A DNA stretch of 24,545 nucleotides, taken from IMG/VR virus record IMGVR_UViG_3300034166_001928, positions 1 to 24,545 of that record. One strand, written 5' to 3'. The stretch is from a virus. This document shows, in pieces, positions 3,413 through 23,544 of the stretch. Made by a program: the position numbers and the translations under genes. Numbering within the stretch: the first letter of the stretch is position 1; each line of letters starts with the position of its first letter. The notes below the pieces were generated by a model. That model was given only the letters and a program-made list of their open reading frames with translations, was not told the origin of the DNA and ran no database searches.

Positions 3413-3604
3413 TCAGCCAGCCCTGTTCGGGACCGGCAGCACCGTGACGGGCTTCACCAGCTGCTGCGGCTCGTTCTGCTGGGCCAGCACGACGCCCTTC
3501 GCGAGCTCGAGCATGCCCAGCGCCAACACCTTGTCGGTGGGGCCGCTGAAGGTGAGCTGCCCATCGCGGGTAAACTCGATGGTGATGCGAATCGCCTGGC
3601 TCAT
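3413..3604 (-). CDS. 63-residue phage protein, unknown
   Basis: The ATG at 3604 forms an ATGA overlap with the stop of the preceding gene and has GGAAGGTGG just upstream, so it is translationally coupled. The product (MSQAIRITIEFTRDG at its start, then LGMLELAKGVVLAQQ) has a short beta segment and one helix. It is not recognised. Its conserved position between two typical tail-appendage small proteins suggests a chaperone or accessory role, but nothing in the sequence proves this. Confidence 0.6.
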   Translation of the reverse strand: MSQAIRITIEFTRDGQLTFSGPTDKVLALGMLELAKGVVLAQQNEPQQLVKPVTVLPVPNRAG

Positions 3605-3996
3605 GCGCCACCTTCCGGGAAGCTCCAGCTGTTGATTTGCACGGGCCCGCCCGCCACCAGCGCCAGCGTGTTGATGTTCATGTCGGCGCCCGACACGCCC
3701 ACCGTGCCCTGAAGCACCGCAACGCCCGCCGAGGTGGTGACGCGCCAGTAGCCCGCAGTGCCCGTGGCGCTCGCGTTGACGTTGGCTGGCAGGGTCGGCG
3801 ACAGCGTTCCGCCAGATGCCGCAGGAGCGAATGGGCTGCCCAGCGTGTGCTCGGCCAGCAACGTCCCAGACTGCGCAGTCGCCACGTCGGCAGGCAGCGA
3901 GCCGGTGAGAATGCGCAGACGCCCGCCGCTCCCCACTGCCGCCGTCACTGCGTCTGCACGCGCGTTGCGAGCTGCCATGGAGAGCTGCAGGGCCAT
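3601..3996 (-). CDS. MALQLS-type small phage tail-appendage protein
   Basis: This 131-residue protein begins MALQLSMAARNARADAV and has a repeating Gly/Ala/Thr beta region ending in INSWSFPEGGA. The N-terminal helix plus RILTGSLPADVA and GTAGYWRV motifs are a pattern I recognise from small uncharacterised proteins in tail fibre clusters of many prophages. It is the first gene of the leftmost unit. The ATG at 3996 lacks a Shine-Dalgarno sequence; the 20-base repeated element ends 20 bases upstream instead. The divergent lipoprotein gene begins 92 bases away. Function is unknown; a structural role is inferred from context. Confidence 0.7.
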   Translation of the reverse strand: MALQLSMAARNARADAVTAAVGSGGRLRILTGSLPADVATAQSGTLLAEHTLGSPFAPAASGGTLSPTLPANVNASATGTAGYWRVTTSAGVAVLQGTVGVSGADMNINTLALVAGGPVQINSWSFPEGGA

Positions 3997-4087
3997 GCCG
4001 GGTTTGTCCGCCGCAGGTGGACCGCCGAGCTACACCGCTGAACGGGTGTCGCGTGGCGCGTCGGCTCGTAGGCGGTAGGGTTGGAGC
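3997..4087. other. Divergent intergenic region between appendage unit and lipoprotein moron
   Basis: This 91-base gap separates the minus-strand appendage unit from the plus-strand lipoprotein gene and is one of the longest non-coding stretches in the window. It must hold the promoter of the lipoprotein gene and probably the start of the leftward unit. It contains copy 2 of the repeated element. No clear -35/-10 pair of the standard sigma-70 type stands out on the plus strand. Confidence 0.5.
4017..4036 (-). promoter_or_regulatory. Repeated 20-base element, copy 2
   Basis: Read on the minus strand this is GGTGTAGCTCGGCGGTCCAC, identical over all 20 bases to copy 3. It ends exactly 20 bases before the ATG at 3996. 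The GGTG at one end can pair with the CACC that begins at the other end and runs one base into the spacer, giving a small stem. The downstream gene has no recognisable Shine-Dalgarno sequence. Confidence 0.6.
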
Positions 4088-4489
4088 ATGACTGGTCGAG
4101 TTCTTGTCCTGGCGGTGGTGATGGCTGGGTGCGCCCCCATCGACGGCTCCACGTGCGAGGAGGAGGCAGCGACGCAGTGTGACGGGGCGCGCGTCGCGTA
4201 CTGCGAGCGCGCCAGCCTGGGCGGCCTGAAGTGGAAGGCGTACGACTGTCCGAGCGGGTGCGATTCACTCAAGGCAAGGAAGTGTGACTGGAACGGGGTC
4301 GACGCCGGCGCCGCATGTCCGGCCAACCAGGCGTCGCAGGCGAACTGCCCGGGCGATGGCCGCCTCATGCTTTGTCTGTCGGCCGACGATGGCGGCGTGT
4401 GGGTCGACGCCCCGTGCGAGCGGTGCGTGGCCGGCGCACCAACGAGCTCCGTTCTGAACTGCAACGGCATTTCGTGCGCCTGCCGTTAG
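4088..4489 (+). CDS. Cysteine-rich secreted lipoprotein (moron)
   Basis: This is the only convincing plus-strand gene. AGGG lies 7 bases before the ATG. Residues 1-14 form a short lipoprotein signal ending in VMAG before Cys15, which would be lipidated. The mature protein has 14 further cysteines in two similar halves: Cys23, 31, 39, 54, 58, 66 and then Cys77, 87, 96, 110, 113, 125, with extra cysteines at 130 and 132. An even number fits disulfide bonding outside the cytoplasm. Short Cys-rich lipoproteins with Trp in each repeat are common in myxobacteria. Its reverse orientation within the late genes marks it as a moron, perhaps expressed from the prophage to alter the host envelope (superinfection exclusion or another surface trait); that role is inference. 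Confidence 0.8.
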   Translation: MTGRVLVLAVVMAGCAPIDGSTCEEEAATQCDGARVAYCERASLGGLKWKAYDCPSGCDSLKARKCDWNGVDAGAACPANQASQANCPGDGRLMLCLSADDGGVWVDAPCERCVAGAPTSSVLNCNGISCACR

Positions 4490-5007
4490 GTTGAAGGTCG
4501 CTCGCCCCACACAGCAAGAGAGAAGTTGAAGTCCGTGCGTGCCCACGAGGGAGCCCGCTCCCACGTCGAGACGATGACCAGCGACCCGCTCGGCCCGCTA
4601 GAGATAAAGCACGTCGCCTTCCGCTCGACACCCGTAGTTGCTCGAGGCGTGGCCACACAGAAGAAGTTCTGCGAGGTCGCGAGGTAGATTCGCCACTGCC
4701 CCGTGCCGATGCGCTGCGGTGCGATGGTTCCGAAGATGCCGCCAGAGAGGCTGGCCCCCAGCGAAGGCGTGATGCCCGACGTACTGTCGATGAAGAAGTC
4801 AGCGGTCGCGCGCGCGATGAGGATGTCGTTGTGCTTGCCCGGCACGTTCCTTTGCCAGAACGGCGAGCCTGCAGTCGCCGACGTCGGCACGAGGTGTTTC
4901 AATTCGTAGATGTCGAGCACCGCCTCGCCGTTGTCGTTCGCCTGGTTGAGCGACTGGAAGCCTACCGCATGGTCCCGCACCGTCTTCGGAAGCTTGACGT
5001 ACGTCAT
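4486..5007 (-). CDS. Tail fibre-like protein, shorter paralogue
   Basis: The start chosen is ATG at 5007, in an ATGA overlap with the stop of the longer fibre gene upstream; the frame extends further but only as a shadow of that gene. The 173-residue product begins MTYVKLPKTVRDHAVGFQSL and resembles both ends of its upstream neighbour: LNQANDNGEAVLDIYELKH near its N-terminus, and WARTDFNFSLAVWG near its C-terminus, matching WARADRTFSAAMFG in the neighbour. It therefore looks like a shortened copy lacking the middle part. A virion fibre or receptor-binding role is inferred from position after the tail-tip genes. Its TAA stop overlaps the TAG stop of the convergent lipoprotein gene. Confidence 0.7.
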   Translation of the reverse strand: MTYVKLPKTVRDHAVGFQSLNQANDNGEAVLDIYELKHLVPTSATAGSPFWQRNVPGKHNDILIARATADFFIDSTSGITPSLGASLSGGIFGTIAPQRIGTGQWRIYLATSQNFFCVATPRATTGVERKATCFISSGPSGSLVIVSTWERAPSWARTDFNFSLAVWGERPST

Positions 5008-19319: not shown

Positions 19320-19850
19320 GGTGTTCTCCTGGGAAGGGTGAGGCGTGGATGAGGGTGCTCGGCCTGCCGCCACGCGAGGCAGGTCGAAAAGGAAGGGCTG
19401 ATTCAGCAGCGCAGCGCCCAACAGCGTCGGGCCCTGGCGCTTGCCGGTGGTGGTGTCCCAGCCGTCGAGGGCGAAAGAGGGCGAGAGGCACCGCAGCTCG
19501 TCAGCGAGAATCCGCGCGCGGGCCGCAGCGGTCCACTTGATGAGCCCGTAGAGCCCGTCGTCGCGCAGCTCGAGCCCCTCAATCCACCCCGAAGCGATGG
19601 AGGTGGGGCTTTCGTCGTCGTGCCAGTAGTCGACCGGCAGGGGCGCCTTGTTGATGCGCTCCCAGTTGGCCACCATCTTCGCGAGGAACTCCCGCGACAT
19701 GGTGATGGAGCCACCGGGGAAGTCGGGGCGGAACCGCTTCACGCCCACGGGGAACAGCATGTTCCACTTCGGAGCGTCGTCTCCGAGCGGAGCCAGCGCC
19801 TGCGAGTCGAAGCGCACCACATCGCGCTCACCAGAAGCCATGCGCGTCAT
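18726..19850 (-). CDS. Mu I-like prohead protease with C-terminal scaffold
   Basis: This 374-residue protein starts with ATG at 19850 in an ATGA overlap with the portal-MuF gene; AGGTGA lies upstream. The N-terminal 165 residues follow the Mu I protease pattern: WNMLFPVGVKRF, then PVDYWHDDES (His in the expected place) and LADELRCLSPSFALDGWD, where the Ser of LSPSF is a good candidate for the nucleophile. After a low-complexity linker, about 180-300 is a highly charged helical region, as in scaffold proteins, with the final 60 residues again helical. The enzyme matures the prohead; the C-terminal part acts as scaffold and is also made separately from an internal start. Confidence 0.88.
   Translation of the reverse strand: MTRMASGERDVVRFDSQALAPLGDDAPKWNMLFPVGVKRFRPDFPGGSITMSREFLAKMVANWERINKAPLPVDYWHDDESPTSIASGWIEGLELRDDGLYGLIKWTAAARARILADELRCLSPSFALDGWDTTTGKRQGPTLLGAALLNQPFLFDLPRVAAGRAPSSTPHPSQENTMLRTLLLSLFAMPEVTTDEALAEAVRKLKADNLKLGNEMNEKVEFTSKPLKVELAAARETVVKLEADLAKAKSDALGVEVDAFLVKLESEKKLLPANRESAKEICLKMGMEFAKKHFGAATPIVPVGEVGIRGKGGDEAVAPEQVTQQLDDELERIRKDTPGLTYSEARKRLAAEKPELLKLAASSSAKSKRPAPEA
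19326..19330 (-). promoter_or_regulatory. Internal Shine-Dalgarno for scaffold start
   Basis: AGGAG on the minus strand, six bases before an in-frame ATG within the protease gene. It decides the nested scaffold start. Confidence 0.75.
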
Positions 19851-22105
19851 TCGTCACCTGCCTCTTTCTTGCGGAACAGCAGCAGACAGCGGCACTTGTC
19901 GCGCCCGTCGCAGTTGCGGTCCGGTGGAGTGAGGCGGTCATGCGCGGGGGAGTCGAACTCCGCCGTCTGCCCGTCGGCCGCCTCGCACGTGGGGCACGTG
20001 TTGGTGTCCAGCACCGCGCTGCGCTCGACCTCGTCGACGCCGCCAATGAGGCGCGCAGCCTCGTCACGGCCCACGTTCCAGATGCGCGTCGTGACGCTGC
20101 CCGCGTCGGCCTTGAAGGCCCCCGTCTCAATCTGCTTCACGACGGTGCGCGCGACGACTTCGCCGGCGCTGCCTCCCGTGCGCACGACGTCGACGGCCTC
20201 GCGCTCGAGCTCGCCACGCAGCCGCGCCACCATGCGACGCACCAGCCCCTTCTCGGACTGCTGCACCACCTGCTCGGCCTTCACGACGGCCTCGTCGAGC
20301 TCTTCCTCTTCCTGCATCTTCACCAGGCGCTGCGGGACGGTGGCGCGCAGCTCCTTCGCCACCTGACGCGCACCCAGCTGGCGCAGCTGCGCGTGGTACT
20401 CGGTCACGGCCTTCTCGAGGCGCGCGGTGTCGAACTGCATGGTGGCGACTTCGTCGGGGTTGCCGTCCTGCATCGCCGCGGTGATGGCGGGGCCAGCGGC
20501 CACCAGCATCTCCGCGATGATGGGGCGCACGCGCTGCTCGAACTCCACCGGCGCCGCGTCGAGCGCCTGCGCCATGGCGACGAGGTCAAGCTTCATCTCC
20601 GACGGGCGGAGCGGCCGCGAGGGCACGAAGGGGCGCGCGCTCATCTTCTTGGGCGCGTCGTCGACCTCTTCGCCCTCGTCTTCGTCTTCTTCGGCTTGCT
20701 CACCTGCACCACCGAAGGGCGGGGCCATGACGGGCGCGCGGGCCGCCTTCGCCTCGAGGGCCTCTTCGCGTGCCTCGTGGTCGATGGGCGCGAAGCCGAG
20801 GTCCTCACGCACCACGTTCTCATCATCGAGCGTGACGGTGAGGAGTCCCGTGGCCACGGCCTTCGTTGCAGCGTCGAGGCGCGCACCAGGCGACAGCTGC
20901 GGGCGCTTCAGCGTGATGGTCAGCTTCGGGTACTCGCTCTGCGGCCCGAAGTTGGCGTCCACCAGCTTCTTGACGGCGCCCGTGTACGCGCGCGAGCCGA
21001 CGCCGTTCCACACGGCCTCCAGCTCCGAGACGACACCCTGCACGAAGGCGAAGCTCTGCCCGTCGTGCGTGTCGCCGACAGCACGAGAGCCCGTGCCGTT
21101 GATGCCGAGCGACAACTGCTGCGCCTGCACGATGGTGAGGATGCAGGAGCCGAGCTGCTGCCACGCGTCGAGCACGTGGCCCTTGTTCGCGCCGGGCGAG
21201 TACACCCACTCGATGCTCCAGCCGAAGGGCATCACCACCGCGGCGTTCTCGTGGAACACCAGATTCTCGAGCAGGCGCTGCAGCTTCTTGCGCTGGCCGT
21301 CCGTCAGCTTCGCGGCACGGTCCGACGACGAGACGGCCGTGGGAATGCCCGCGCCCTCGCGCACGAGACTGATGCCCGCCAGCTTGAGCAGCTGCTCCTG
21401 AATCTTCGCGAGGTACCAGACAGGGCGCCACACGCTGTAGCCGGCGAAGTTGTTGCCCCGCCGCTTCCAGCTGAAGAGGGCCAGCTTCGCCGCGGGGATG
21501 TCGTACGTGCCCCACGCGCCGGTGTCGTCGGGCCCCTGCTGGCGAACGAAGGAGAGCTCTCCGCCCGCGAGGTGCCAGCCCTGATGCGCCACCGTCGAGG
21601 GCAGGCGCTCGGCCATGCGCACGATGCCGAGGCCGCGGCCACCGGGCAGCGTCTCGTGCTGCACGTCGTCCCACACCAACTCGTGCAGCGAGAAGCCGGG
21701 CGTCAGGCCTTCGGTCATCTGCTGATTCACCGCAGCGACACCGGGCTCCATCTTCTCGGTGAGGGCCCACTTCACGAAGTCGGCGTGTCGCTGCCCGTCG
21801 GCCACCTTCTCCGAGGCCTTCACGCCGATGCGCGCGTCGCGGATGTGCCCGCCGATGAAGTCCATCCCCATCGCGACGAAGGGGTTGGTGCGGAGCAACT
21901 TCTCGTACTCGCCCCAGCTGCGAGAGCCGGGCGTGCCGTACGCGGCTTCGTGCAACAGGCGGTTGTTGTTCTCCGCCTGAATGTCGCCGGAGTAGTTGCC
22001 GATGCCGTCGACGCCGAGTTCGCCCGGCAGGGGCGCTTCGGGCGCAGGGGCACCCGCAGCCAAGCGCGTCACACGGCCCTTGCTGGCGCTTCGCTTGGTG
22101 CCCAC
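19847..22105 (-). CDS. Portal (Mu gp29-like) fused to MuF head morphogenesis protein
   Basis: The 752-residue frame starts with GTG at 22105; there is no Shine-Dalgarno, and a second GTG a dozen codons on (MTRLAAGAP) is an alternative. Residues about 20-460 are of the DUF935/Mu gp29 portal type: SGDIQAENNNRLLHEAAYGT, then NPFVAMGMDFIGGHIRDARI and LVREGAGIPTAV. A run of acidic residues (about 466-487) forms a linker. The last 250 residues are helical and end in the SPP1 gp7/MuF signature: AVLDTNTCPTCEAADGQT, then H in PAHDRLTPP and CDGRDKCRC. In Mu these are separate proteins (gp29 and gp30). The portal is the DNA gate of the head; MuF proteins sit inside it. Confidence 0.87.
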   Translation of the reverse strand: MGTKRSASKGRVTRLAAGAPAPEAPLPGELGVDGIGNYSGDIQAENNNRLLHEAAYGTPGSRSWGEYEKLLRTNPFVAMGMDFIGGHIRDARIGVKASEKVADGQRHADFVKWALTEKMEPGVAAVNQQMTEGLTPGFSLHELVWDDVQHETLPGGRGLGIVRMAERLPSTVAHQGWHLAGGELSFVRQQGPDDTGAWGTYDIPAAKLALFSWKRRGNNFAGYSVWRPVWYLAKIQEQLLKLAGISLVREGAGIPTAVSSSDRAAKLTDGQRKKLQRLLENLVFHENAAVVMPFGWSIEWVYSPGANKGHVLDAWQQLGSCILTIVQAQQLSLGINGTGSRAVGDTHDGQSFAFVQGVVSELEAVWNGVGSRAYTGAVKKLVDANFGPQSEYPKLTITLKRPQLSPGARLDAATKAVATGLLTVTLDDENVVREDLGFAPIDHEAREEALEAKAARAPVMAPPFGGAGEQAEEDEDEGEEVDDAPKKMSARPFVPSRPLRPSEMKLDLVAMAQALDAAPVEFEQRVRPIIAEMLVAAGPAITAAMQDGNPDEVATMQFDTARLEKAVTEYHAQLRQLGARQVAKELRATVPQRLVKMQEEEELDEAVVKAEQVVQQSEKGLVRRMVARLRGELEREAVDVVRTGGSAGEVVARTVVKQIETGAFKADAGSVTTRIWNVGRDEAARLIGGVDEVERSAVLDTNTCPTCEAADGQTAEFDSPAHDRLTPPDRNCDGRDKCRCLLLFRKKEAGDE

Positions 22106-22125
22106 GTCGCGAAGCTGCGACGTGA

Positions 22126-22145
22126 GTGGACCGCCGAGCTACACC
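22126..22145 (-). promoter_or_regulatory. Repeated 20-base element, copy 3
   Basis: Read on the minus strand this is GGTGTAGCTCGGCGGTCCAC, identical to copy 2. It starts 1 base after the terminase stop codon and ends 20 bases before the portal GTG. The 20-base spacer contains GTCGC-AGCTTC-GCGAC, a short hairpin directly before the start, and no Shine-Dalgarno. Confidence 0.6.
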
Positions 22146-22146
22146 C

Positions 22147-23544
22147 TCAGAGGTCCATGTCTCGCAGGTACTCCTTGCCGGGCAGCTTGCGGGGCTTTGT
22201 TCCGATTTTCGCGTCGCTCTCGTTGTCGAGCTCATCGAAGGCTGCGACGGCTGCGTCGATGAAGTCGTCGCGCTTGTCGTTGACGCCGGTGAAGGCCGCG
22301 TGCTCCGCGAGGAAGTCGTTGAGCCAGGGCGCGTGCTTCGGCACCAGCACGTGCCCGCGATTCCACGCCGCCGAGTACCGCTGCGCGCGGATGAACTTGT
22401 CCTCCTTCGCGATTTCCCCGCGCACCGGGATGGCGTTGTCGCCGTCGTCGAGCAGCTCTGCGGCACCCGACTCGGACGATGCGACGTACCAGCGCCACGT
22501 CATCGTCGGCTCGGCGTCATGCACGGTGCGAAGCCGCGCCTTGAAGTGCGCCATCGGTGCGCGGCCGCGCCACGCGTCGACGACGTAGAAGTACTTCCCG
22601 CTGCGCACCATCTTCACGAAGGCGCTGAAGTCGGCGCGCTTCTTCTGCGAGTACGCCGAGTCGACGCCGCCCGCAGCCCGGTACACTTCGGGCGCCGTCG
22701 ACCATGCGTGCGGGTCCTCGAAGAGGCGCTCGCCTCGGACGCGGGGCTGGCCCTGGTACAGCGACGCCGCGGTGTACTCGCCGACCTCCTCGAGCCGCGC
22801 GCGCATCGCCTCGGTGGGCCATCGCTCCGGCCACAGCGCGGTGCCTGATTCTTCGTCGGGGACGCGCACGCCGTCGACGTCGCGACCAAGCGCGGGGAGG
22901 TTGATGTTCTCGAAGCCCTCGTTGGCGACGAGCTGGCCGATGAGGTCGTCCGGGTGCCAACGCGTCGCGAAGACGAAGACGCTCCCGCCCGGCTCGATGC
23001 GCGTCATGAGCACGTCGCGGAACCAGTCCATGAGGCGGTCGCGGTAGATGGCCGACTCCGCCTCGAGTCGATTCTTCGTCGGGTCATCAACGATGGCGAT
23101 GTCGACACCGAAGCCGGTGAGGGGGCCACCGACACCGCCTGCGAGAAGCCCGCCACCCTCGGGCGTGCGCCACTCGTTGATGTTGCCCTCGATGAGCAGG
23201 CCCTCGGCCTTGCATAGCGCGCGCGCCTTGCGGCTGCCCTTGCGCGAGAGGCGTTCGCCGTACGTCGAGTAGCTGAGCGTCAGCTCGGGGCGACGTCGCA
23301 GCGCGAAGGCGGGGACGTGAAAGACGCTCTCGCTCTTCGCGTGCCGTGGCGGTGCAGAGCAGCACACGCGCTGCGGCACGCCTTCGACGGCCAGCTCGAA
23401 CCGACGCAGCAACGGCGCGAGGTGCGTGGGCGGGAGGAACTTCGGCGACAGCTTCGGAATGAAGCGCACGAGGTCGCGCAGCTCGAGCTCTGCCTCAAGC
23501 TCGGCTGCATCAGGCACGCCCTCGAGTTGCAGCACGTCGCTCAC
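22147..23544 (-). CDS. Terminase large subunit
   Basis: The GTG at 23544 shares GTGA with the stop of the DUF5681 gene. The 465-residue protein has the two-domain packaging motor layout. ATPase: a Walker A-like CSAPPRHAKSES at about residues 62-73, Walker B VDIAIVDD near 150, and ATRWHPDDL near 195 as the coupling segment. Nuclease: AGGVDSAYSQKKRADFSAF near 290 with the first Asp, and a C-terminal DDFIDAAVAAFDEL, consistent with the RNase H-like metal site. It cuts and pumps phage DNA into the head. The PPRHAKS form of Walker A is that of the terminase group found in many Mu-like and other prophages. Confidence 0.92.
   Translation of the reverse strand: MSDVLQLEGVPDAAELEAELELRDLVRFIPKLSPKFLPPTHLAPLLRRFELAVEGVPQRVCCSAPPRHAKSESVFHVPAFALRRRPELTLSYSTYGERLSRKGSRKARALCKAEGLLIEGNINEWRTPEGGGLLAGGVGGPLTGFGVDIAIVDDPTKNRLEAESAIYRDRLMDWFRDVLMTRIEPGGSVFVFATRWHPDDLIGQLVANEGFENINLPALGRDVDGVRVPDEESGTALWPERWPTEAMRARLEEVGEYTAASLYQGQPRVRGERLFEDPHAWSTAPEVYRAAGGVDSAYSQKKRADFSAFVKMVRSGKYFYVVDAWRGRAPMAHFKARLRTVHDAEPTMTWRWYVASSESGAAELLDDGDNAIPVRGEIAKEDKFIRAQRYSAAWNRGHVLVPKHAPWLNDFLAEHAAFTGVNDKRDDFIDAAVAAFDELDNESDAKIGTKPRKLPGKEYLRDMDL

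Follow-up and report, generated by a model that had tools for sequence, protein, structure and literature searches.

Three copies of a 20-base element are carried on the minus strand of the window (the whole stretch of phage DNA analysed, 24,545 nt), each of them shortly upstream of a minus-strand gene. Copy A (22126-22145; 20 of 20 bases) lies between the genes for the terminase large subunit and the portal protein, starting one base past the terminase stop, and the gene after it (19847-22105) encodes a portal protein (PHROG 113) whose C-terminal part is head-morphogenesis-like. Copy B (4017-4036; again 20 of 20) precedes the gene of a virion structural protein (PHROG 3758; 3601-3996), which opens a run of minus-strand genes reaching 1148. 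Directly upstream of copy B lies a divergent plus-strand gene (4088-4489) for a small Cys-rich lipoprotein-like product, a moron that runs against the late-gene direction. Copy C (1135-1154; 18 of 20) overlaps the stop codon, TAG (1148-1150), that ends the gene upstream and heads the gene of a 56-aa zinc-ribbon-like membrane protein (943-1113), followed by a small membrane protein, an Rz-like spanin (369-737; a weak match, E 0.009) and a 140-aa protein. The preliminary description had assigned the copies to the portal gene, an appendage unit and a lysis-like unit; the portal is borne out by its family and copy B does head a virion structural gene, while the name "lysis-like" is reasonable from the gene content without being proven.

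The window is a fragment of a 38.5-kb genome, that of the record IMGVR_UViG_3300042480_001415 (G001; 38,483 bp), base 158 of which is base 1 of the window, and the two are identical over the common part except at 5 positions in the interval 127-147 of the window. At its two ends G001 carries a direct repeat of 326 bases with two mismatches (L020 1-326; L021 19157-19482), so that G001 is probably a complete genome. The phage, which comes from soil, looks temperate from its gene content, with a late arm of terminase, portal and protease and another arm of an integrase and an excisionase-like HTH protein. Its base composition, 67-70% G+C, is insufficient on its own to name the host; only remote homologues, of the portal, protease and terminase, were found among GenBank phages, a single-protein portal scan gave no prophage relatives in bacterial genomes, and two distant terminases came from 395 genomes of one phylum, which is possibly not that of the host.

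Number, spacing and start codons of the copies

The three copies, with the positions, strand and mismatches first reported for them, were recovered by an exact scan (0 mismatches at 4017-4036, 0 at 22126-22145 and 2 at 1135-1154, all on the minus strand), and none appeared in 100 dinucleotide-preserving shuffles. Measurement likewise upheld the reported spacing, the 3' end of the element standing 20, 20 and 21 bases from the start codons GTG 22105, ATG 3996 and ATG 1113, respectively. The whole of G001 was searched for additional copies, whether within genes or at arbitrary distances, which would have spoken against the preliminary description; just these three were present, each on the transcribed strand and shortly upstream of a gene start, the next-best match having 5 mismatches and lying on the opposite strand. 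The distance to the upstream gene is variable and that to the downstream start is constant. Copies A and C are, moreover, alike over 29 bases (90%), the similarity extending upstream of the 20-mer. Among 2.9 million viral contigs and 85k genomes, four single matches to the 20-mer were found, all in unrelated coding regions; otherwise the 20-mer and its looser forms were confined to this phage.

The start at 3996 is firm, as the PHROG 3758 alignment begins at residue 1 and annotation puts the start of the phage Pan4 homologue at the same residue. The starts at 22105 and 1113 are likely correct; alternative in-frame starts occur 33 bases downstream for the portal (GTG) and 18 bases downstream after copy C (ATG). 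At copy A only, a perfect 8-bp inverted repeat, CACGTCGC-AGCTTC-GCGACGTG (22103-22124, minus strand), ends by its right arm in the portal start codon GTG, and it could be either a hairpin hiding this start or a site for a protein.

The three genes had been described as lacking a Shine-Dalgarno (SD) sequence. By the pairing energy with the 16S tail, compared over 26 valid starts after two further entries without a valid start codon had been set aside, they are within the four weakest (+0.6, -1.5 and -5.0 kcal/mol), which agrees with the claim in the main, although the gene after copy B, at -5.0 kcal/mol, is barely weaker than several ordinary genes.

Corresponding sites in related phages

Syntenic relatives were found among public viral contigs, namely G002 (IMGVR_UViG_3300029930_000020), G011 (IMGVR_UViG_3300036985_004188) and G012 (IMGVR_UViG_3300036715_004097). 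The terminase of G012 is 65% identical to that of the window phage, its proteins being mostly 27-65% identical. A variant of the 20-mer, GCGGTGTAGCAGCGAAGGAC, occurs exactly twice in G012: between terminase and portal, the place of copy A, and past the tail-fibre genes, on the far side of a divergent lipoprotein-like gene, where the second gene after it is weakly holin-like (this second site is called G012-B below). The lipoprotein-like gene of G012 stands at the place corresponding to that in the window, about 52 bases from its element, and the two genes have no significant sequence similarity. At both G012 sites GGTGTAGC starts 40 bases before the start codon, as at copies A and B, and in the partial contig G011 CATGTAGC starts 40 bases before the portal GTG. 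The core is common to the window phage and G012 and the second half of the element is different, this half being identical between the two exact copies inside each of the two phages. The relatives thus show the element to be a conserved signal that is not unique to one phage. Several near-duplicate stretches were also seen in the non-structural arm of G012 (L048 6395-8045 region), with repeats of 16-mers or longer at 23395/25036, 23620/25954 and 23636/25974.

The TGTAGC arrangement is missing from G002, which carries another repeat, TTGACGGTGAAACG, at the two corresponding places (L030+L031, 21095-21108 at the portal start and 4529-4542 after the tail-fibre genes, both on the minus strand). 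It contains a -35-like TTGACG, agrees in 19 of 22 bases when extended and is the best-matching pair among all G002 gene starts (p about 0.007); the portal start of G002 is ambiguous. In G009 and G010, whose terminases are more distantly related, the core is absent from the junction and nothing similar stands there.

Six sites were aligned on the element: three in the window phage, two in G012 and one in G011. Common to all six are TGTAGC (-38 to -33; in the window 22138-22143, 4029-4034 and 1147-1152 for copies A, B and C, the first of them at -38 to -33 from its start codon), G-29, G-26 and A-11, and T-7 is present in five. When the 20 bases downstream of the element were shuffled, the A-N3-T pair of columns gave p about 3e-5 with the portal sites counted once, and about 9e-4 when any A/T pair was allowed, values to be read as a guide, since the pair was noticed after the fact and was not predicted, and since the sample is six sites of three phages in which the portal sites share ancestry. 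The pair falls into putative -10-like hexamers, CAGCTT at copy A (22112-22117; A-11 and T-7 from GTG 22105), GACAAA at copy B (4003-4008; with A-11 and no T-7) and CACCCT at copy C (1121-1126), all on the minus strand. At copy C the start codon stands one base further away and both the element-to-hexamer distance and the A/T register are unchanged, which favours a spacing kept in DNA, that of a promoter, over a distance to the start codon. The copies, their positions and spacing, their conservation in two relatives and the conserved A/T at -11/-7 are directly established.

Promoter reading and its alternatives

With moderate confidence, and on the evidence of the sequences compared, we take the element to be the upstream (-35-like) half of a phage-specific late promoter that would give leaderless or near-leaderless late mRNAs. 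A phage-encoded or phage-modified factor would read TGTAGC together with the variable second half that is the phage's own, at about -40 to -21, and would help the host RNA polymerase to open a weak -10-like hexamer (SANNNT) starting 20 bases after TGTAGC; transcription would begin at the start codon or a few bases away, and the operons served would be those of portal and head (A), appendage genes (B) and lysis-like genes (C). The start of transcription at these points, the binding of a factor and the late expression are what we infer from this layout. In a set of phage late promoters one motif would stand upstream of several late operons at a fixed distance from the transcript start; the motif seen here keeps a fixed distance from the start codon. 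The B copies adjoin a divergently transcribed gene in two phages, and the gene downstream therefore probably needs a promoter of its own; a signal with constant spacing to a -10-like hexamer, which a start codon follows within 7-8 bases, is how the promoter of a (nearly) leaderless mRNA would be laid out. A promoter with a short leader had been one of the two explanations offered in the preliminary description, and it is strengthened by the same genome positions, the 40-base distance, TGTAGC and the A/T pair in the relatives, the promoter function remaining a deduction from these features.

The weak points of the promoter reading are the poor hexamers, the lack of a sigma-70 match and the SD of G012-B. 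The first position of the hexamers is never T, and TGTAGC is separated from the hexamer by 20 bases, more than is usual for sigma-70. A-11/T-7 and the weak SD suggest leaderless mRNAs; however, G012-B has a strong SD (GGAGG, -10 kcal/mol) overlapping the proposed hexamer, which is odd for a leaderless message and counts against strict leaderlessness at that site, and for this reason being SD-less is not a defining property. A promoter would remain consistent with all six sites if transcripts began somewhere between the element and the position of the SD, and the case for strict leaderlessness is accordingly weaker than that for a promoter.

Three known promoter classes did not fit the sites as a set. 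Sigma-70 promoters have TTGACA- and TATAAT-like hexamers 16-18 bases apart, and no match was found around any of the three copies, the G002 counterpart alone having TTGACG. The GG-N10-GC of sigma-54 promoters at -24/-12 fits copies B and C and, by inspection, fails at copy A and at both G012 sites. T7-like promoters imply a phage-encoded single-subunit RNA polymerase of about 800-900 aa, and the longest gene-like ORFs were assigned by length and family hits to tail (810 aa), portal (752 aa) and tape-measure-like (633 aa) proteins.

The late promoters of P2 are activated by the zinc-finger protein Ogr, the signal being the dyad TGT-N12-ACA near -55, and one phage-specific signal is common to several late operons. 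Leaderless genes have also been cited from P2, which has four late promoters (PMC4633059). The likeness consists in several late operons under one phage-specific signal, weak host promoter elements and a short or absent leader, whereas the element described here is asymmetric, lies at -40 to -21 and is without that dyad: TGT-N12-ACA is absent from the six element sites by inspection, and no Ogr match was given by Pfam or PHROGs among the candidate proteins scanned. The plan of such a late-operon signal is known from P2, its sequence and position being different here. In T4 the MotA box lies at about -30 before a good TATAAT, and the leaders are normal. The middle promoters of T4 use this box with appropriation of sigma (PMC6755090, PMC2988021), and they resemble the proposed arrangement in that the box of a phage factor replaces the -35 hexamer and is followed by a -10 element, whereas the hexamers described above are weak and are followed directly by the start codon. 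The T4 MotA boxes and the P2 Ogr sites are the nearest to the element in the mechanism proposed for it.

Three other explanations were weighed against the promoter. The element may be an operator, that is, a site for a phage repressor or regulator over or near late promoters, or a stoperator-like stop of elongation, which we regard as unlikely. The integrase and the excisionase-like HTH protein make lysogeny and repression likely, and the copies are asymmetric, of one orientation and confined to short intergenic stretches. In cluster A phages, up to 30 repressor-bound 13-bp stoperators are spread across the genome (PMC6550527), which are also asymmetric and oriented with transcription, and identity within a phage with a second half diverging between phages would parallel their variation, with that of the repressors, between related phages (PMC6550527). 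However, there are just three copies per genome here, at a fixed distance from the starts of late and not early genes, and a roadblock needs neither that fixed distance nor a conserved A/T pair at fixed spacing. An element of the mRNA, either a leader signal enabling SD-less starts or a target for a blocking phage RNA-binding protein, is given a somewhat smaller chance still, and the new translation signal that had been the other early suggestion fared less well than the promoter. In its favour are the constant spacing of 40 or 41 bases from the start codon, the place of the three window genes among those with the weakest SDs and an in-frame TAG inside the element at five of the six sites; for the start-associated sequences (SAS) of cluster K phages a role in translation was proposed (PMC3203893). 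The six sites, however, have no shared RNA fold, the hairpins being different (a start-codon hairpin at copy A, a 12-bp one at copy C) and the 20-mer by itself barely structured; the element ends 20 bases upstream of the start, beyond the SD region; the copies after the divergent gene would still require a promoter within about 50 bases upstream; the SD at G012-B is normal; and the A/T pair of copy C tracks the element and not the start codon.

The SAS itself (GGGATAGGAGCCC; 13 bp, 11-19 copies, typically 3-7 bp from the start, containing AGGAG, in the non-structural half) is accompanied by the inverted repeat ESAS, which differs between subclusters (PMC3203893). It is likewise a short asymmetric repeat, mostly of one orientation, close to starts at a fixed distance and rare outside its clade, but the element has another sequence, has 2-3 copies standing about 20 bp ahead of the start, contains no SD and has late genes behind it. 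In form, the SAS and the cluster A stoperators are the nearest described repeats, and each differs from the element in copy number, distance and sequence. A structured RNA family or tRNA was rejected, with no relevant Rfam hit, no tRNA and no consensus structure, as was a resemblance to a tRNA D-arm (GTGTAGCTC.GCGGT), for which ARAGORN and Rfam were negative. Coupling to an upstream stop was set aside too, the stop being inside the element only at copy C and in G011, and copy B having no convincing upstream sense gene. Finally, the copies might be the footprint of recombination or of a mobile element, left when a short stretch without regulatory function was copied from one module border to another. 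Their place at such borders, the similarity of A and C beyond the 20-mer and the identity inside one phage, as if recently copied, would fit; against this, the two corresponding borders carry the element at the same start distance in a relative with such diverged proteins, the core is invariant where the flanks have diverged and the rest of the genome has no copies, and we hold it to be very improbable.

Returning to the promoter, a wider and clearly more tentative proposal is that of an undescribed bipartite class, TGTAGC-N20-SANNNT with the start codon 7-8 bases on, possibly serving leaderless late operons in a clade of temperate phages and co-evolving with a phage-encoded specificity factor that would read the variable second half. 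A single motif predicting late operon starts would amount to a regulatory code open to test, in a phage clade that is uncultured and has no close relatives in culture. Should the near-leaderless reading be true, abundant structural and lysis proteins would be made from mRNAs without ribosome-binding sites, which is unusual, and a second half that is the same within a phage and divergent between phages points to a phage transcription factor that may be discoverable. Two small Cys-rich proteins of 99 and 166 aa are encoded upstream of the terminase genes (L021 7285-7584 and 6815-7315, both on the minus strand) and are candidate late regulators; together with a 124-aa HTH protein they would be the first to consider as proteins binding the 20-mer, and at the equivalent place G012 encodes a weak counterpart of the former Cys-rich protein.
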